Below are positions 1,933 through 19,157 of a DNA stretch of 64,000 bases, piece by piece. The DNA lies in NCBI GenBank assembly GCA_003223215.1, contig QHYH01000081.1:82481-146480 (forward strand), written 5' to 3'. Source of the stretch: Acidobacteriota bacterium (GTDB lineage: Bacteria; Acidobacteriota; Terriglobia; Acidiferrales; UBA7541). The translations under genes were made by a program, and so were the position numbers. The first letter of the stretch is position 1. Each line of letters starts with the position of its first letter. The notes below the pieces were generated by a model, which was not told where the DNA came from, made no database searches, and worked only from the letters and a program-made list of their open reading frames with translations.

Positions 1933-4248
1933 ATGGAAACAGTAAGCAAAGCCGGAAGGTACGAGATCGTTGGCGAGCTCGGCCGCGGCGCCATGGGCAT
2001 TGTCTACAAGGCCGTCGACCCGGTAATCGGCCGCACCGTCGCCGTGAAAACCATCCGCCTCAGCGAAGAAGGCACCGGGCTCAACCGCGCAGAACTGCTG
2101 GCGCGGTTCCAGACCGAAGCGCGCGCCGCCGGCCTGCTCACTCATCCCAACATTGTGGTGGTCTATGACGCCGGCGAGGAAGACGGCCTGTACTACATCA
2201 CCATGGAGTTGGTGGAGGGCAAGAGCCTGCAAGTCCTCCTCGACGGCGGACATTCCTTCCCCTTGTCCCGCACGCTGCGCATCATGGACCAGACCTGCAG
2301 CGCACTGCAATTTGCCCATGAACGCAACGTCGTCCACCGCGACATCAAACCCGCCAACCTGATGCTCGCCGCCGACGACACCGTCAAAATCACCGACTTC
2401 GGCACGGCCAAGATCCTGCAGTTCGGCAGCACCCAGCAAACCTCGCATGTAATGGGCACACCCAGTTACATGTCCCCGGAGCAAGTGAAGGGGCGCGGTG
2501 TGGACGGCCGCAGCGATATCTTCTCCCTGGGGGTCATGCTCTATGAAATGATCACCGGCGAAAAGCCCTTTCCCGGCCAGAACATCACCACGGTCATCTA
2601 TAAGATTGTCAACGAGGAGCCCGTTCCGCCGCGCCAGATTGATGCCTCGATTCATCCCGGCATCAGCACGGTGGTGCTGAAGGCCCTCGCAAAAGAACCC
2701 GAGCAGCGCTATCAAAGCTGCCGCGAAATGCTGGAAGACTTGCGCAATTACCGGGCGCAAGGCTTTGCCGGAGCCAGCCCCAATTCAACGATGGTCATCG
2801 GTGGCGGCTCTCCTGCGGCAACCGTGGCCTCCGGCAATCTGGGCGGCCACGGATTTCCGGGCCACGCGCTTTCCGGCCATGCACCGGCGACAGATGATCC
2901 GACGGTTGTTGCCACCTCACGCTCTCCGAGAGAGCGCGCTGCTGCCCCCTGGCCGACTCCCGTCGTTCCCCGCACGGGAACGATGCAGTCGACCCCGGTC
3001 GAGCCTCCCAAGAAAAAGAGCGTCGTCGGCACGATTTTCGCGGCGCTGGCGCTTGTTGGCGTAATCGTCTACGGCGCAAACAAGATCAAACCCGTTTTTG
3101 AGGCCGCGCGCGCATTACACAACGCCCAGGTGAAGGAAACCCCTTCGTCCCGTTCCGCCGAACCTGCGCCGCGGGCTGCCACTCGGAATTCTGAGGCGAG
3201 CCCGAGCGCCGACGCCCCGCAGGGCCCGCACGAGGCTTCCACGAGCGCTCGGGACACCGTGGCCGAAGTGAAATCCGCGGATCCTTCGCCTGAAAAAGCC
3301 GCGCCAAGGAGACCCGACAATGCCATCAGTCCCAAGACCGCGGAATATAAGGGCCGCATTGAGGAAGCCATCTCCGAAAAAGGACTTGGCGGAGGCGCGA
3401 AGGTACAGAGCACGGGCAACACTTTGACTCTGGTCGGCAAACTCCGTCCCTCCGAACACGCCGAACTCTTGAAATTCCTCCGCAGCGCACCGGCAAGCGT
3501 GCATGTCATCGATCATATTGAGTACGACGATGCCGCCGCAAGCGCGGGGGCCGGCTCCGACGATTCGAGCCATCCGCTTCCGGCGCCGGGCCGCGGCGCG
3601 ATTCACGTGGTTACCGACGTGATCGGGGCGACTGCGCTTCTCCAGGGACCGGCCGGCCATGTCCTGGGCAAGTGCGAGACGCCTTGCAGCTTCAACAATC
3701 TCACGCCGCAGCGTTACGGCCTGGAAGTGCAAAAGGACGGCTATCAACCTGTGCAAACCGCGCTCCAGATCAAAGGGGACGAAGCCCAGGATCAAAAGAT
3801 TAAGCTCGAACCGCTCGCCAGGGGCATTTTCATCAGCACCGAGCCGCCGGGAGCGGACGTGTTCATCAACGGCGCAAAACAGTCCGGCCAGACTCCCGTC
3901 ACGTTGCCGCTCGCTCCGGGGCAGTACAACTTGGTGTTGCGGCTGTCCGGCTACGAAGCCCACTCCGGGACCATACAAGTGACGGATATTCAAACGCAAC
4001 TCAAGGTGCCCCTGACGGAAAGATCGGCTACGCGCGTTGCCTGGGCGCAAGTCACGAGCAATCCTAAGGGCGCGGAAATCATTGTGGACGACAACTCCAC
4101 CGGACAGTTCACCCCCGCGCGGGTTCAGATACCTTCGGGGATTCACACGATCACGCTCAAGCTCGATGGGTACCAGCTCGCAAAGCGGACCGTCGAAGCG
4201 AGCGAAGGGGGCACGGTGCCCATCAACCAGACGCTGCGGCAAAAATAA
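1933..4248 (+). CDS. Ser/Thr protein kinase with BON-like and three PEGA domains
   Basis: 771 residues. An STKc-type kinase domain occupies about residues 10-280: glycine loop GRGAMG (17-22), ATP lysine K39, catalytic loop HRDIKPAN (H135, D137), DFG aspartate D155 and the APE-like SPEQ motif. A Ser/Pro-rich linker leads to one membrane helix (about 364-381). The rest should be extracytoplasmic: a BON-like segment (about 470-533) and three PEGA-like repeats (about 557-630, 631-702, 703-771), recognised by GADVFING, GAEIIVDD and GYEA/GYQL motifs. PEGA modules are thought to bind surface structures, so this is probably a transmembrane sensor kinase. Its substrate is unknown. The PilZ gene downstream may be functionally linked, but the 237-base gap argues against tight coupling. 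Confidence 0.9.
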   Translation: METVSKAGRYEIVGELGRGAMGIVYKAVDPVIGRTVAVKTIRLSEEGTGLNRAELLARFQTEARAAGLLTHPNIVVVYDAGEEDGLYYITMELVEGKSLQVLLDGGHSFPLSRTLRIMDQTCSALQFAHERNVVHRDIKPANLMLAADDTVKITDFGTAKILQFGSTQQTSHVMGTPSYMSPEQVKGRGVDGRSDIFSLGVMLYEMITGEKPFPGQNITTVIYKIVNEEPVPPRQIDASIHPGISTVVLKALAKEPEQRYQSCREMLEDLRNYRAQGFAGASPNSTMVIGGGSPAATVASGNLGGHGFPGHALSGHAPATDDPTVVATSRSPRERAAAPWPTPVVPRTGTMQSTPVEPPKKKSVVGTIFAALALVGVIVYGANKIKPVFEAARALHNAQVKETPSSRSAEPAPRAATRNSEASPSADAPQGPHEASTSARDTVAEVKSADPSPEKAAPRRPDNAISPKTAEYKGRIEEAISEKGLGGGAKVQSTGNTLTLVGKLRPSEHAELLKFLRSAPASVHVIDHIEYDDAAASAGAGSDDSSHPLPAPGRGAIHVVTDVIGATALLQGPAGHVLGKCETPCSFNNLTPQRYGLEVQKDGYQPVQTALQIKGDEAQDQKIKLEPLARGIFISTEPPGADVFINGAKQSGQTPVTLPLAPGQYNLVLRLSGYEAHSGTIQVTDIQTQLKVPLTERSATRVAWAQVTSNPKGAEIIVDDNSTGQFTPARVQIPSGIHTITLKLDGYQLAKRTVEASEGGTVPINQTLRQK

Positions 4249-4485: not shown

Positions 4486-7128
4486 GTGGAGAAATCTTTG
4501 TCTCTTCGAGCCACCTTGCCAACCCATGACCGTGAGCGCGGGACGCTGTCGAACGCGCCGATCGATGCGACACCGAAGGCGGCGGGCGGCGCGACGGCCG
4601 TCTCCCACTGGCTATCCGCAAACACAGATCACCGACCCAGCGAGGTTTATCGCGCGCTTCGCGACTTCCACCTACTCCTGCGCTCCGAACGCCTCTATGA
4701 AAAGAATCACCCCAGCCGGCTCGACAGCCTGGATAGCGCCTACGATTCCCTGCGGCCCGTCGCGGAATCACTTGAAGGGCTCGAGATTCGAATCGAGCGC
4801 GGCGGAATTGTTGCGCCGCGGGTCAGTGAGCGGCACCTGCCGGACGCGCGCGGAGAAATGCAGGCGCTGGCCGCGGATTTGCAGCGCGTGGGCATCTGGT
4901 CCCTGGCTTTCGCGAGGAAGTTCCATGTGGGCGAACTGGACACGCTGGCGCGATTGATGAGAGAGTCATTACTGAAATCAGAAGAGCCCGCAGGCGCTTC
5001 CGGAAATGCTTGGTGGCCCACCCGCCTCCTGGAGAATCGTGTGGAAGGCATTTCGGTCAATACGCAAACCGACCGCAAAGTGGACACGGTGCTGGCAAGC
5101 CTGATTGGTGCCCTGGTCGCCTATGGCGGCCATACTCCCCGGGAAACCCCGGAAACGCCGATCAAAGCGCCGGACTCGGACGACCTGATGGCCACGCTGC
5201 GGTTGTTGGCGCGCCTTACACCGCCGCTCGAGACCGCGCGCGGCCTTGCTCCCGAAGAAGCGGCGCGCGCCATTCACGGTGCCATGGAGGAAGCCAGCCG
5301 CGAGAGCGTGAGCATGCTGCTCCACTCCGTCTCGCAATATGCTCCGCGCGACGGCGAGCAGCCTCTTCCTTACCTGCTGCGGCTGTCGGAAAACATCATT
5401 CTGGAATTTCTTAGCGCCGAGTTCGCCGGCGGCTCGCTGCATTCTCCGGGAGTCCGTCCGGCATTCCAGCGCTTTGCTGAAGTCTTGGTGGAATCCGGAG
5501 CCTACACGGGTCCTCATGCCTCGCAGCACCTTTCCTCGCTGGCGGTCACCTGGGCGAGCGACACGCATTGCGACCAGGTGATCGACCGGTTCTGGCTGGA
5601 ACTGCCGGCGCGGGAAAAATCAGCGGTGGTGCGCGGACCGGACGTCTGGTGCGTTCCCATCGCGGCTTTGCGGCAAACGCTTGGCCAACTCGTCGAAACC
5701 GGCGCGGACGCTCCTCGGCGCGAAGCGCGAAGCATGGTGCTGAATTATCTGCGTCGTCTGGACCTTCCCGATGCTTCGGCAAGGCGTTCGGTGGCGGCCG
5801 GTCTCAAAGAGCTTGTTCCGATCCTCGAATCCCTGTGGCCGAACCAATTGCCGGAGGAGCTCAGCCGCTCGGCCATGAAAGCTCTCCAGGAAGAAACGGC
5901 TCCGGAGACGGCAGCGCTGCTCGCCGCCTTGGTGGAAGCTCTCGGGCGCATCGCCGTGAATCGTGCCGACTTTGCCGGATTCGAATTGATCCTCACCGGT
6001 CTCGAGCGCTCCCCGCGCGACAAAGAACACGAGCATATGGCGGCTCTTGCAAACCGCCTGGTTGCGCAAGACCGCTGGTTCTTGCTGGTGGACGCTTCGC
6101 TTGCCAAACGGCCGCTCGATCCGGTTCTGCCCCGGCTCTTGCAGCGCGATCCGGAACGTTTGCTCGACCGCTTGACGCTGCTTTTGACCGAACCCCGAGG
6201 TGCAGAAATGCTGCAGGCGATGACCCGCCTCCTGCGCACCATCGGCGTGCCCGTCCTCAACGTTCTCGAAACCCGGCTATACGAGGCCCGGCGCCAGCGC
6301 GTGACCGCCGCCATCAAGCTCCTGGCGGCCTGCGACCCGGAGCGTTTGCTCCGCGGTCTCGCCCGGGCCATTGGGAGCTGGGAATGGAATCTTCAGGATC
6401 TGGCGGTAAGCGAGCTCTCGCGGCCCTCGAATTCCGCCTCGGCGCAAAGCGTTGCTTTCGTTTTCTCCGCGATTCTTGCGGAGGCGCATGCGATGGTTGT
6501 GCCGATGATGATCGACCAAATCGGATTAGCCAAGGAAGACACCGCCGTCCCGCAACTTTTGGAAATCGCCGCCGGGGAACACGAAGTTTTGCGCGATCAG
6601 TTTGTCCGCATCAAGGCCATCGAGGCCCTCGGTCGGATGCGTTCGTCGGATGCCGCCGAACTCCTGCGCACGCTCGTGGAAAAGCGCGAAGGCCTAGCTT
6701 ATCGAGAGCCCGCCGGCCTGCGCGCGGCGGCCGAGGACGCGCTTGCCCTCATCGAGAATCGGCCTTCGTTCAAGCAAGCTGCCGCCGCTTTTGGTGCCCC
6801 GACCCAAGCGAGCTCCGGGTACCTCGTTCCCCGCCGATATGTCCGTGTGCCCCTGGAGTCGCCGCTACGCGCGCAAATTGAAGGAATGCCCGCCGGTCTC
6901 GCCCGCGTCAAGACCATCAGCCTAGGAGGCGCTTACCTCGAGTCTCCGCAAAAACTTACCGTGGGCGACTCCATCAAGCTCGAAGTGCGCGCCGGCCTTC
7001 GCAAAATCACTTTCACCGCCGTGGTTCGCAATATCGGCCAGGAAGGCACCGGCGTGGAATTCGTCCACATGCGTGACGAAGACCGCGAACGTCTCCGCAA
7101 GTTCGTCCAGCGCCACCTGCAACTCTAG
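4486..7128 (+). CDS. HEAT-like repeat protein with C-terminal PilZ domain
   Basis: 880 residues, cytoplasmic, with no signal peptide or membrane helix. Most of the protein (about 50-770) is alpha-helical with HEAT/ARM-like repeats rich in Leu, Ala and Glu. The last 100 residues (783-880) form a PilZ domain, the usual cyclic-di-GMP receptor: RRYVR at 783-787 gives the RxxxR motif. The second motif reads TISLGG (810-815), so the usual D/N of (D/N)xSxxG is Thr, which may weaken ligand binding. GTG at 4486 is taken as start with AAGGA just upstream. The likely role is a scaffold whose state depends on c-di-GMP; the partner is not identifiable. Confidence 0.8.
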   Translation: MEKSLSLRATLPTHDRERGTLSNAPIDATPKAAGGATAVSHWLSANTDHRPSEVYRALRDFHLLLRSERLYEKNHPSRLDSLDSAYDSLRPVAESLEGLEIRIERGGIVAPRVSERHLPDARGEMQALAADLQRVGIWSLAFARKFHVGELDTLARLMRESLLKSEEPAGASGNAWWPTRLLENRVEGISVNTQTDRKVDTVLASLIGALVAYGGHTPRETPETPIKAPDSDDLMATLRLLARLTPPLETARGLAPEEAARAIHGAMEEASRESVSMLLHSVSQYAPRDGEQPLPYLLRLSENIILEFLSAEFAGGSLHSPGVRPAFQRFAEVLVESGAYTGPHASQHLSSLAVTWASDTHCDQVIDRFWLELPAREKSAVVRGPDVWCVPIAALRQTLGQLVETGADAPRREARSMVLNYLRRLDLPDASARRSVAAGLKELVPILESLWPNQLPEELSRSAMKALQEETAPETAALLAALVEALGRIAVNRADFAGFELILTGLERSPRDKEHEHMAALANRLVAQDRWFLLVDASLAKRPLDPVLPRLLQRDPERLLDRLTLLLTEPRGAEMLQAMTRLLRTIGVPVLNVLETRLYEARRQRVTAAIKLLAACDPERLLRGLARAIGSWEWNLQDLAVSELSRPSNSASAQSVAFVFSAILAEAHAMVVPMMIDQIGLAKEDTAVPQLLEIAAGEHEVLRDQFVRIKAIEALGRMRSSDAAELLRTLVEKREGLAYREPAGLRAAAEDALALIENRPSFKQAAAAFGAPTQASSGYLVPRRYVRVPLESPLRAQIEGMPAGLARVKTISLGGAYLESPQKLTVGDSIKLEVRAGLRKITFTAVVRNIGQEGTGVEFVHMRDEDRERLRKFVQRHLQL

Positions 7129-15147: not shown

Positions 15148-15987
15148 GTGCAAATTGCGTGTGGCGGCGTGACCGACGTAGGTCGCGTTCGAACGAACAA
15201 CGAGGATTGCTTCCGCATCGTGATGCCGCTGAACCTCTACGTGCTGGCCGACGGAATGGGCGGAGAAGCACACGGCGAAATTGCCAGCGCGCTGGCGGTG
15301 GAAACCGTGGTGACACACTGCCTCGACGCGGAAGCCAATCCAGCGGCGAACGTAATCGGAAAGGTGGAGCCGCGCTGGAGCGCCAAGACCAAACGGCTTT
15401 CGACGGCCGTGCATCTGGCCAACAAGAAGATTTGCAAATCCGCAGAGGAGCATCCGGAGCAGCACGGCATGGGAGCGACCTTGACGGCGGCGTGGATTGA
15501 CCGTTCCAAACTGAGCATTGCGCACGTCGGCGACAGCCGCGCGTATTTGCTTCGCGGCGGTTCGCTGCTGCAGCTCACGCGGGACCACTCGCTGGTTGCG
15601 GAACAAGTGCGCCGCGGAATGTTAACCGCGGCGGAAGCCGAGGAGAGCGAAATGCAGAGCGTACTGTTGCGTGCGCTCGGCGTCCAGCCGGAGATCGAAG
15701 TGGATGCCGAAGAACACATGCTTTTTCCGCGCGACGTGTTGATGCTGTGCTCCGACGGATTGACGCGCGTAGTCACCGAGCCGGAAATTGCCGGGGTACT
15801 GCAAGCCGAAACCGATCCGATACGCGGCGCGGAAGAGCTGGTAGCCATCGCCAATGATCGCGGAGGCCCGGACAACATCACCGTGGTGATCGCGCGGATG
15901 CTTAAAGATTCCAAGGGATGGTTTTCCTGGTTGCGCCGCGGGGCGCGCAAGAACCTAGGCAACAATGGCCACGCTGGAGGAAAGTAA
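15148..15987 (+). CDS. PP2C-family Ser/Thr protein phosphatase
   Basis: 279 residues. PP2C phosphatases remove phosphate from Ser/Thr using two metal ions. Motifs in order: RTNNED, LADGMGG, GATLTAA, HVGDSRAYL, CSDGLTRVV and GGPDNITVV, which include the metal-binding aspartates. The C-terminus has a short basic tail (WFSWLRRGARK). The GTG at 15148 is chosen because AGGAG precedes it by five bases; the open frame extends back to a GTG at 15052 with no conserved sequence. It is the first gene of a three-gene operon; FHA follows after 2 bases. It probably opposes a Ser/Thr kinase, possibly the one at 1933-4248. Confidence 0.92.
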   Translation: MQIACGGVTDVGRVRTNNEDCFRIVMPLNLYVLADGMGGEAHGEIASALAVETVVTHCLDAEANPAANVIGKVEPRWSAKTKRLSTAVHLANKKICKSAEEHPEQHGMGATLTAAWIDRSKLSIAHVGDSRAYLLRGGSLLQLTRDHSLVAEQVRRGMLTAAEAEESEMQSVLLRALGVQPEIEVDAEEHMLFPRDVLMLCSDGLTRVVTEPEIAGVLQAETDPIRGAEELVAIANDRGGPDNITVVIARMLKDSKGWFSWLRRGARKNLGNNGHAGGK

Positions 15988-15989
15988 CG

Positions 15990-16715
15990 ATGCCTAAACT
16001 TAGCCTCATGTTCGACAACAAACTGGTAAGAGAGGTGCCGGTAGGAAGCCGCCCGGTAACCATCGGGCGCGCCCCGGATAACGACTTGTCCGTAGACAAC
16101 CTTGCCGTCTCCAGCTACCACGCGAAGGTTTACTTCGAAGCGGGGCGCATGGTGATCGAGGACCTGAACAGCCTCAACGGCACGTTTGTCAACGATCTGC
16201 GGGTCGAGCGCGCCACGCTGCACGACGGAGATAAAGTTCACATCGGCAAGCACACCATCAAGGTGGATACCAGCGGCGATGCGCCGGTGTCGTGGCAGTC
16301 CGGCCGCAAAGCGGCCGCGCCGCGCATTAACGAAACGATGGTGCTGGACACCAAGGAGCGGCGCCAGATGCTCCAGCAGGCCGCGGCGATGGGCGAGTCC
16401 ATGCAATTCGCCTCGACGCGCGTGAAGGTTGCGACGCTCATGGTGCTCGGCGGAAACACGGACCAAAAAGAGTACATTTTGACAAACAAGCTGACGGTCA
16501 TCGGAAAGTCCCCGATGGCCACGGTGAAAGTGAAGGGCTGGTTCAAGCCGCAAATGGCGGCGCAGATCAACCAGCGCGATGACGGCTACTTCCTTGGCCC
16601 CGGCGACAAAGTGCCCTCGGTGAACGGCAGACCTATCGGCGGACCGACGCGGCTGAACGACGGCGATGTGATTGAAGTTTCCGGCGTGAGGCTGAATTTT
16701 ATTTTCCGCGAGTAG
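15990..16715 (+). CDS. FHA-domain protein with two FHA-like domains
   Basis: 241 residues. FHA domains bind phosphothreonine peptides. The first domain (about 20-90) shows the classical pattern: TIGRAPDNDL, then SSYHAKV and NGTFVND, with the Arg, Ser and Asn contacts present. A second, more divergent FHA-like domain (about 150-241) shows TVIGKSP and SVNGRPI but lacks a clear phospho-binding Ser-x-x-His motif. The start at 15990 has GGAGG upstream and lies 2 bases after the phosphatase gene. The context suggests it reads or recruits phosphorylated proteins for the cyclase encoded next. Confidence 0.88.
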   Translation: MPKLSLMFDNKLVREVPVGSRPVTIGRAPDNDLSVDNLAVSSYHAKVYFEAGRMVIEDLNSLNGTFVNDLRVERATLHDGDKVHIGKHTIKVDTSGDAPVSWQSGRKAAAPRINETMVLDTKERRQMLQQAAAMGESMQFASTRVKVATLMVLGGNTDQKEYILTNKLTVIGKSPMATVKVKGWFKPQMAAQINQRDDGYFLGPGDKVPSVNGRPIGGPTRLNDGDVIEVSGVRLNFIFRE

Positions 16716-16727
16716 CGTTCGAACGCC

Positions 16728-19157
16728 ATGGCAGCTCCGTCAGCAGGCTGGTGGCAAAGGCGGGGCTTGTTCGGCCTCTACGAACTGCTGCAGTCGTGGT
16801 GGCGGCACCGCATCTCGTTCCTTCTCAGCCTGAGCATTACGCTCGCCGCGCTCACGAGCTACTACCTGGTTTTTCTGCAGGAAACGAGGACCCCGCTCTC
16901 CGAACTCGTCCAGCGTCTGGAACTCGACACGCTCGACACCCGCTTCCGTTATCGTCCCGCGCGATTCGCACACCCTGACTCGCGCATCGCCATCGTGGAT
17001 ATCGACCAGAAGGCGCAGGAAGTTTTGGGGCGCTGGCCGTTCTCGCGGATCTATTTTGCAACATTGCTCGACGCCCTTCACGAGGACGGGGCGGCTGTCG
17101 CGGCCTTTGACATCACCTTCAGCAAACCGGATCAAACTGCGGCGCCACTTCGTTCGCTTGCGGCTTCGCTCGAAGACCGCCGGCAAAACCGTGAACCTGT
17201 CGACCCCAAGGTTATCGGGGAGATAAACCGGCTCGTTGCCGAATACGATGCCGACACAAAGTTTGCCGCCGCCATCCGACGTTTTGGCCCGGTCATTCTT
17301 GGCAACTATTTCCTGTTTACGCCGGCGGACCTTCAGGGACTCAGCGATCGGACGCTCGACGCCTATGCCAACCAGATCTCGTTCTTCGCGTTTCCGCCGG
17401 CGCATGCGATGCGGCCGGAATCCGGGAAACAAGACAAGTTGAACCTGATCGAGGATTTCGCAGCAGCCAGATTGCTGCCGCGCGGCGCGGAAGCGAATTT
17501 GGACGCTCTTACCTCCGCGATGCGGGGCGACACCTCCTGGACCGGGTTCTTTAATTTTCCGCCGGACAGCGACGGAGTGGTCCGCCGCGCCACGCTGGTG
17601 CTACCGTACGGGCGCTCGCAAAATCCCGACGAGTGGGATCTCTATTCCTCGCTGGACCTCGTCGCTGCCCGGGCCCTGATTGGCCGGGAGGCGCAAGACA
17701 GCAATCTCTTCTACGGCCCGACGGGCATTTGGAAGATTTCTCTCGGAAGCAAGGCGGCGATTTACCCCGACGGCCGCGGCCAGTTGCTTATCAACTACGA
17801 GGGCCCTTGGGGAACTTTTCCGCACTACTCGATCGCGGATGTTCTCGAGCGAAAATGTGCGCCGGGAACATTCCGGGGGAAGCTGGTGCTGGTCGGCGCA
17901 ACGGCCACGGGGATCGGAGACCTCCGCGCAACGCCCTTTGGCGGCGCGAATTTTCCCGGGGTGGAAATCCACGCCAACGTCGTGGACAACATCCTCAACG
18001 ACCGCTTCTTGCGGCGAGGCGCGAAACAGGCGCTCATCGACGTGCTGCTGATTTTCGCTTTCGGCATTCCGCTGGGGATCTGGATGGCGCTCGTATCGCC
18101 GCGCTGGATGTGGTTTGGCGCTTTCCTGTTTGCGCCTTTGGTTGGGGTGGATTACTGGACGTTTTTGCACGGCTGGTGGCTCAACTTCACCGTGCCCGCG
18201 GTGACGCTCGCGTCCAACGTTTTGCTGGTTTCTCTTTATCGGTCGCTCGTTGAAGAAAAGGAAAAGCGCCGCGTGCGCGCGGCGTTCGGCCAATACCTCA
18301 GCCCGGAAGTGATCCGCAGATTGCTCGTGAATCGGCGGCTGGTCGAGCCAAAGAAAACGGAAATCACCGTGATGTTCAGCGATATTCGGGGCTTCACGAC
18401 GATTTCGGAAAAACTCGACGCCCAGGAATTGGCGCTTTTTCTGAACCAGTACCTCTCGGACATGACCAGCCTGGTTTTCGATCACCACGGCACGCTCGAT
18501 AAATATATCGGCGACGCGGTCATGGCTTTCTGGGGCGCGCCCTTCGAAGAACCGGGGCACGCGGCGAAGGCTTGCAAAGCCGCACTGAAGATGATGGACC
18601 GCGTCCGCGAGTTGCAAAAACAGTGGACGGCGGAAGGAAAGCCGCATCTCGATATCGGCATCGGCCTGAACACCGGCATGGCCAGCGTGGGCAACATGGG
18701 TTCGGCGCTGCGTTATGGGTATACGGCGCTCGGCGATGCCGTGAATCTGGCCTCCCGGCTGGAAGGGCTGAACAAAGACTACGGCACGCACATTATCGTA
18801 AATGAATCGACCTACCAGGCCGCGAAAGAAAGCGGCTTCCTGTTTCGCGAGCTGGATCTGATTCGCGTCAAGGGCAAGCTCCAGCCGGTCACCATTTGGG
18901 AGCTCATCGGCCGCGAGGGAGAGGATACCGTCTACGGCGCGCCGGAAGAGGCTCGCTCTCGAGTCGAGCTTTTCCAGAGCGCTCGCGCTCTCTACGGCAG
19001 GCGCCGGTGGCAGGCTGCGCAGCAGGCGTTCCAAGAAATTCTCGACAAGTGGGGGGACGACGGCCCTTCGCGTGCCTACTGGAAACGCTGCCAGGAATAC
19101 CTCTTCGCAGAGCCGCCCGCGACCTGGGACGGCGTGTTCACGATGACCCACAAATAG
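16728..19157 (+). CDS. CHASE2-domain class III adenylate/guanylate cyclase
   Basis: 809 residues. Order: a membrane helix (about 29-51); an extracytoplasmic CHASE2 sensor domain (about 60-425; IAIVDIDQKAQEVLGRWPFSR is typical); three more helices (about 435-508); a class III cyclase domain (about 545-725); then an alpha-helical TPR-like tail. Catalytic residues are visible: metal-binding D552 in FSDIRGF and D596 in YIGDAVMAFWG, K592 in DKYIGD as in adenylate cyclases, and the GDAVNLASRLE block with the transition-state Asn and Arg. It therefore probably makes cAMP. It starts 12 bases after the FHA gene, in the same operon. Confidence 0.92.
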   Translation: MAAPSAGWWQRRGLFGLYELLQSWWRHRISFLLSLSITLAALTSYYLVFLQETRTPLSELVQRLELDTLDTRFRYRPARFAHPDSRIAIVDIDQKAQEVLGRWPFSRIYFATLLDALHEDGAAVAAFDITFSKPDQTAAPLRSLAASLEDRRQNREPVDPKVIGEINRLVAEYDADTKFAAAIRRFGPVILGNYFLFTPADLQGLSDRTLDAYANQISFFAFPPAHAMRPESGKQDKLNLIEDFAAARLLPRGAEANLDALTSAMRGDTSWTGFFNFPPDSDGVVRRATLVLPYGRSQNPDEWDLYSSLDLVAARALIGREAQDSNLFYGPTGIWKISLGSKAAIYPDGRGQLLINYEGPWGTFPHYSIADVLERKCAPGTFRGKLVLVGATATGIGDLRATPFGGANFPGVEIHANVVDNILNDRFLRRGAKQALIDVLLIFAFGIPLGIWMALVSPRWMWFGAFLFAPLVGVDYWTFLHGWWLNFTVPAVTLASNVLLVSLYRSLVEEKEKRRVRAAFGQYLSPEVIRRLLVNRRLVEPKKTEITVMFSDIRGFTTISEKLDAQELALFLNQYLSDMTSLVFDHHGTLDKYIGDAVMAFWGAPFEEPGHAAKACKAALKMMDRVRELQKQWTAEGKPHLDIGIGLNTGMASVGNMGSALRYGYTALGDAVNLASRLEGLNKDYGTHIIVNESTYQAAKESGFLFRELDLIRVKGKLQPVTIWELIGREGEDTVYGAPEEARSRVELFQSARALYGRRRWQAAQQAFQEILDKWGDDGPSRAYWKRCQEYLFAEPPATWDGVFTMTHK

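Follow-up and report, generated by a model that had tools for sequence, protein, structure and literature searches.

An acidobacterial phosphatase, tandem-FHA and CHASE2-cyclase operon as a candidate phosphothreonine signalling module with cAMP output

Bacterial Ser/Thr kinase pathways and cyclic AMP (cAMP) signalling are usually studied apart, and the locus described here raises the question of whether they meet in a single set of neighbouring genes. In a stretch of 64,000 nucleotides from a soil acidobacterium (hereafter the window; positions 82,481 to 146,480 of contig QHYH01000081.1, assembly GCA_003223215.1), an operon encodes a PP2C-family phosphatase, an adaptor with two FHA domains and a putative class III adenylyl cyclase with an extracytoplasmic CHASE2 sensor. 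We lean towards reading this operon as a phosphothreonine (pThr) signalling module with a cAMP output, in which a kinase would phosphorylate Thr116 of the adaptor, the first FHA domain (FHA1) would dock on it, the phosphatase would reset the switch and the cyclase would be controlled. The operon is the form taken in this lineage by a four-gene kinase–phosphatase–adaptor–cyclase module, which is apparently undescribed and occurs in several phyla. The genome (8.8 Mb in 279 contigs, 97.65% complete) has its nearest named relatives among those labelled Candidatus Acidiferrum or Acidobacteria gp2.

The operon and its three proteins

The features of the operon are as follows.

15148..15987, + strand: PP2C-family Ser/Thr phosphatase of the Stp1/PstP/IreP type, 279 residues, GTG start (Pfam and NCBIfam; PDB relatives PstP, Stp1 and PppA)
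15990..16715, + strand: tandem FHA adaptor, 241 residues, with FHA1, a disordered linker carrying Thr116, and a second FHA domain, FHA2 (Pfam, AlphaFold models, Foldseek, conservation)
15990..16268, + strand: FHA1 domain, residues 1-93 (invariant pocket columns; closest solved folds the FHA domains of FhaA, GarA, OdhI and DgcB)
16335..16337, + strand: codon of Thr116 in the linker motif NETMVLDT, proposed phosphosite and FHA1 ligand (conservation in orthologs, motif at remote loci)
16428..16715, + strand: FHA2 domain, residues ~147-241, with a degenerate pocket (AlphaFold, fold match to GarA/OdhI, Pfam match in an ortholog, L085)
16728..19157, + strand: predicted CHASE2-class III adenylyl cyclase, 809 residues, with a transmembrane segment, extracytoplasmic CHASE2, further transmembrane segments, catalytic domain and TPR-like tail (Pfam, PDB, catalytic hexad, transmembrane-like segments)

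All three genes lie on the + strand, separated by exactly 2 and 12 bases, and are co-transcribable. The operon with this spacing had been described in an earlier sequence-only reading of the window, and it was borne out when coordinates, strand, Pfam domains and catalytic residues were all checked; FHA2 and the conserved linker threonine go beyond that reading. The PepSY, 480-residue membrane and ABC genes downstream were dropped as candidate parts of the module, as they are not conserved beside the operon.

The phosphatase matches PP2C_2 (Pfam, 3.5e-13) and passes the Stp1/IreP equivalog NF033484 of NCBIfam (237.5 bits, cutoff 230), and its metal-binding Asp residues are intact (D20, D35, D129, D203 and D242); its GTG start at 15148 is preceded by a ribosome-binding site, CAGGAG, 5 bases to the 5' side.

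In the adaptor, which matches FHA in Pfam (1.3e-23), the residues of the FHA1 pThr pocket (G26-R27, S41, H44 and N63-G64) are all present and are invariant columns of the ortholog alignment; by an AlphaFold model and Foldseek, the closest solved structures are the FHA domains of FhaA, GarA, OdhI and DgcB. Residues 145-241, when modelled alone, also take an FHA fold, with a predicted local distance difference test (pLDDT) score of 95.8 and template modelling scores of 0.83-0.85 to GarA/OdhI. The Pfam match of FHA2 is weak in the window protein (0.008) and clearer in ortholog L085 (2e-6), and its pocket residues are replaced, Arg by K173 (IGKS), Ser by P187 and His by A190. The protein is thus a tandem FHA protein in which FHA1 keeps the pThr pocket and FHA2 has lost it.

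The cyclase matches CHASE2 (7e-58) and Guanylate_cyc (3e-27) in Pfam, has CyaB of P. aeruginosa as its best PDB match and carries the complete class III hexad including the adenine-specifying residues (D552, K592, D596, T666, N673 and R677). It appears by these residues to be an intact CHASE2-class III adenylyl cyclase; indeed, the hexad is intact by alignment in every cyclase linked to an FHA gene. In the window genome the operon cyclase is the sole match to PF00211, a search that covers class III cyclases, and 24 matches to cyclic-nucleotide-binding domains were found. The only other CHASE2 protein of this genome (L002, G000:C1) is a CHASE2-histidine kinase beside an NtrC-type response regulator. 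Elsewhere in the same taxonomic order, at loci from other families (L160 and L163), CHASE2 proteins of 885-889 residues give two cyclase-profile matches each, which may be tandem domains or a split match.

Gene order in the genus and across phyla

Is this gene order a chance association? All 34 relatives that gave a full-length FHA match have the PP2C gene beside the FHA gene. With the window this makes 35/35 genomes of the genus that carry the FHA gene, 21 of which continue into the cyclase, and chance is excluded; in most of the genus the cyclase also retains its spacing of 12-13 bases. At one locus (L060) the contig stops inside the cyclase gene. Two further loci are peculiar: in L034 (G030:C73), where the FHA protein shares 96% identity with that of the window, the cyclase is a frame-shifted pseudogene, and in a close relative, L035 (G024:C42), a 571-residue carboxypeptidase-regulatory-like gene, named by eye, stands in the place of the cyclase. 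In several genus members (L042:2299-3990, L050:2235-3911 and L044:2447-4084) a divergent gene stands just upstream of the PP2C gene, and its product is GAF-like (ELEELNRIGIALSETRDVERLL..., named by eye); absent in the window, this gene might use the same promoter region or encode a further regulator.

We then scanned named genomes, in which the best 80 of 557 relatives were inspected and the loci annotated by profiles. Beyond the genus, PP2C–FHA adjacency holds in nearly every locus; L077 shows no PP2C ahead of the FHA gene, and L135 is rearranged. In other families of the class (L069-L072 and L074), a fusion of CHASE2 with a Ser/Thr protein kinase (CHASE2-STPK) precedes PP2C, and the order CHASE2-STPK, PP2C, FHA recurs in Nitrospirota, Syntrophaceae, Elusimicrobiota, Mariprofundaceae and Gammaproteobacteria. 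The full four-gene order with the CHASE2-cyclase is found as one array in the sister genus (L067) and in many Burkholderiales, namely Rhodoferax, Polaromonas, Hydrogenophaga, Acidovorax and Ramlibacter. PP2C–FHA without the cyclase occurs in Nitrospirota, Elusimicrobiota and many Proteobacteria, and PP2C–FHA–cyclase without the kinase, as in the window, in L096 and L152. The gene order proposed in the sequence-only reading is therefore conserved well beyond the genus, with an upstream CHASE2-STPK added in Burkholderiales and the sister genus. In further families and in other phyla, the ancestral module begins with the gene for a CHASE2-Ser/Thr kinase. One genome (L068, G003:C24:11000-22000) has a second PP2C–FHA pair, with a soluble STPK of another type (581 residues) ahead of it.

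The cyclase appears to have come to this order on separate occasions. When 42 CHASE2-cyclases were placed in a tree, the linked clade of the Acidiferrum family (support 100/100) sat among unlinked acidobacterial cyclases, and the linked cyclases of Proteobacteria formed a separate group (81/95). Forcing a single clade of linked cyclases costs 257 log-likelihood units and is rejected (p value of the approximately unbiased test, p-AU, 8e-7), and with it one ancient cyclase linkage that was inherited or transferred as a block. The simplest reading is that the cyclase joined the same FHA gene at least two times, by two gains; an ancient linkage followed by several unlinkings would need more events.

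Threonine motifs, a candidate kinase and the proposed relay

What would the adaptor read? The linker segment 99-120 is predicted to be disordered (AlphaFold, pLDDT <50), and Thr116 in NETMVLDT is kept in 43/43 orthologs, with a variable linker around it. A linker motif T-[MVIQTL]-[VILMF]-[LIVFM] is present at 65 of the 80 remote loci, as compared with a mean of 3.3 after shuffling each linker, and its Thr lies mostly 9-15 residues past FHA1 in linkers that are otherwise unalignable. One of the two scan patterns held the strict acidobacterial form of the motif; the proteobacterial forms (e.g., FEKTMIIK) do not match that pattern, and the result is hence not circular for most loci. The linked CHASE2-STPKs carry the same type of motif between CHASE2 and the kinase domain in 29/36 cases (1.3 after shuffling), often doubled (ETVILG, GTMLLDG). 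A reader domain that docks both on its kinase and on itself would require just such threonine motifs in the linkers of adaptor and kinase. FHA1 may well bind pThr116; the likelier FHA ligands are the adaptor's own Thr116 and the matching kinase motifs, rather than the cyclase. Linker-motif statistics and tree models are, nonetheless, no substitute for binding data. In Elusimicrobiota, four loci (L089, L092, L097 and L139) have longer arrays with an extra STPK ahead of the CHASE2-STPK, and their FHA linkers are without the Thr motif, though the kinases retain it.

The sequence-only reading also placed an STPK in the same window, and this kinase is indeed present:

1933..4248, + strand: Ser/Thr kinase with PEGA repeats, 771 residues, with Thr286 (NSTMVIGG) in the juxta-kinase linker; proposed trans-acting kinase (kinase-domain comparison, tree, motif, synteny)

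Among the STPKs of the genome it is the closest, at 46-49% identity, to each of the four CHASE2-STPK kinase domains compared and, in a kinase-domain tree, is sister to the FHA-linked kinases (92/95), with the other kinases of the genome outside. No other kinase of the genome has the motif in a juxta-kinase linker that is soluble, the few further matches looking by eye like membrane segments, and Thr286 is kept in orthologs while the linker varies. Where one contig holds both, the kinase is syntenic 10-22 kb upstream of PP2C–FHA across the genus (11 kb in the window). We considered that this kinase might be the displaced linked CHASE2-STPK, but it falls outside the linked clade and the sister genus holds both its ortholog and a CHASE2-STPK, so that this idea was rejected. 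The window STPK is a related paralogue, plausible as the module's trans-acting kinase and, by its kinship and motif, the best candidate for that role. Directly 3' of it (4486-7128) is a gene for an 880-residue protein with a C-terminal PilZ domain, a possible receptor of cyclic di-GMP (c-di-GMP).

The window genome has 24 protein kinase matches and one linked PP2C–FHA pair. These numbers, together with the closeness of the FHA1 fold to GarA/FhaA, would fit a phosphatase giving feedback on many STPK substrates, an FHA protein regulating metabolism or structure like GarA/OdhI, and a cyclase reporting only its own CHASE2 ligand. The deep conservation with one particular kinase type, not with metabolic genes, makes this very improbable.

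In the relay that we favour, the kinase would phosphorylate Thr116 in the adaptor linker and the threonines of its own linker. FHA1 would bind these pThr motifs, docking first on the autophosphorylated kinase and then intramolecularly, and the latter would free or mask partner surfaces of the adaptor, while PP2C would strip the phosphates and so reset the system. The adaptor, probably via FHA2 or a face of FHA1, would control the neighbouring membrane cyclase, whose CHASE2 would be a second extracytoplasmic input; cAMP would then rise only when the kinase state and the CHASE2 signal agree. Phosphorylation, binding, the adaptor–cyclase contact and the direction of control are all steps that we infer.

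Possible control of the cyclase, related systems and significance

Does the adaptor control the cyclase? Several observations weigh against it. On a tree of PP2C and FHA rooted with the sister genus, the presence of the cyclase changes 8 times, at least 6 of which are forced by well-supported branches; as the sister genus has a cyclase, these changes are mostly losses, so that the cyclase was lost at least six times in the genus with PP2C–FHA retained. Many of the genomes are metagenome assemblies, in which single absences may be gaps, but an RND (resistance-nodulation-division) transporter gene directly 3' of FHA in most cyclase-less loci argues against gaps. The cyclase is thus an optional output, its gating is not the only job of the pair, and the adaptor has other targets. 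Furthermore, the linked CHASE2-STPK is gone from the locus in the window's genus, and we infer the adaptor–cyclase contact from gene order alone. On raw counts the linker Thr motif covaries with the presence of a linked kinase (Fisher p 0.0014), but the tree offers only 1-2 informative independent contrasts, and the covariation was set aside. Also, when linked and unlinked cyclases were aligned for an FHA-ligand Thr motif, no linkage-specific T-x-x-L/I/V was found.

This last result bears on a further proposal of the sequence-only reading, namely that a site phosphorylated by the kinase on the cyclase (or on the kinase itself) is the direct ligand of FHA1 and that the cyclase is gated in this way. 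Gene order agrees with it, and the matching Thr motifs in CHASE2-STPK linkers favour FHA–kinase docking; binding to a phosphorylated cyclase, nonetheless, gained no sequence support, as a conserved Thr motif of that kind was found in no linked cyclase and the best conserved candidate ligand sits in the FHA protein itself. We consider this proposal improbable. With no conserved FHA ligand in the linked cyclases, the contact, if any, would probably be made by FHA2 or a non-phospho face of FHA1; GarA contacts its enzymes by its non-phospho FHA face.

The repeated losses with the pair kept, the cyclase-free pairs of Nitrospirota, Elusimicrobiota and many Proteobacteria and the missing FHA-ligand motif would all suit a different explanation, in which PP2C–FHA, much as PstP does with FhaA/FhaB/GarA, serves as a general pThr module whose targets lie elsewhere, and the co-expressed cyclase is a passenger that the adaptor does not touch. 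Two clades have independently acquired a CHASE2-cyclase at this position, most of the genus keeps the 12-13-base spacing, and the linked kinase and cyclase have the CHASE2 sensor type in common. These points speak against a passenger, and we take this explanation to be unlikely, though worth keeping in mind. Gating of a cyclase by a kinase through an FHA protein, the central idea of the sequence-only reading, has accordingly survived in part: conserved order, at least two recruitments of the cyclase, the kinship of the window STPK to the linked kinases and the intact hexads speak for it, and the repeated loss shows that gating is not all that the pair does.

Several components are already known: kinase–PP2C–FHA cassettes, CHASE2-STPKs and FHA-gated cyclases within one protein (DgcB). 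The mycobacterial PknA/PknB–PstP–FhaA/FhaB is a kinase–PP2C–FHA cassette. One close likeness of the adaptor is to OdhI/GarA, which act with PknG/PknB in Actinobacteria: a small FHA protein with a Thr motif in a disordered segment near FHA (ETTSVF there, ETMVLD here), among the nearest solved folds, and recruited by PknG, whose autophosphorylated N-terminal linker sites bind GarA through its FHA domain (PMC8546545). OdhI/GarA, however, have one FHA domain and an N-terminal Thr segment and inhibit 2-oxoglutarate dehydrogenase, whereas in the window the Thr lies between two FHA domains, C-terminal to FHA1, with PP2C and a cyclase in the operon; the conserved flexible-segment Thr is shared, but the adaptor scores below the cutoff of the equivalog NF041660 (56.8 bits, cutoff 200). 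In DgcB of Bdellovibrio, pThr14 in the FHA tail activates a diguanylate cyclase, and specificity depends on the +3 position of the pThr peptide (PMC6733907); a pThr motif beside FHA is thus proposed to switch a nucleotide cyclase there as well, but DgcB unites FHA with GGDEF in a single c-di-GMP-producing protein, while the window has a separate FHA protein and a membrane class III CHASE2-cyclase for which gating is proposed.

In the type VI secretion system (T6SS), the transmembrane STPK PpkA, the PP2C PppA and Fha1 are encoded together and form one Thr-phosphorylation switch (PMC3953482). The STPK, PP2C and FHA genes are likewise together in the module of other lineages (the window kinase is 11 kb away), but the module has a tandem FHA with the linker Thr motif, a CHASE2 sensor and, in some lineages, a cyclase output. 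The adaptor fails TIGR03354, the TagH-type Fha (47 bits, cutoff 120), and no T6SS genes were seen among the large open reading frames inspected in the window and outgroup loci, of which the profile search did not cover every one. CHASE2-class III cyclases and CHASE2-STPKs of cyanobacteria and others, the latter listed in a survey of cyanobacterial kinases (PMC2176072), have the same domain architectures but are described as single genes, and no combination of them with PP2C and tandem FHA was found in the papers searched. Among the open-access papers searched, none was found that joins CHASE2, an FHA domain and adenylate cyclase.

More tentatively, and with somewhat less confidence than in the reading of the operon as a pThr module, we suggest a cross-phylum relay of CHASE2 kinase, PP2C, tandem FHA and CHASE2 cyclase, in which one linker pThr gates a class III adenylyl cyclase and so couples Hanks-type kinase signalling directly to cAMP. 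A conserved operon in which kinase and phosphatase genes adjoin those of a pThr reader and a cyclase, together with at least two recruitments of the cyclase, points to such a direct link, and T116 is a single named residue that makes it testable, in living cells too, as the module is present in cultivable Burkholderiales (Rhodoferax, Hydrogenophaga, Acidovorax and Polaromonas). In the genus of Candidatus Acidiferrum kin, having any class III cyclase often hinges on this operon: of the 21 genomes that carry its cyclase, 10 have no other (and in one of those 10 it is broken), and 13 of the 14 cyclase-less genomes are without any PF00211 class III match. If the four-gene relay holds true, the sole class III cyclase of the window organism would be under its control.

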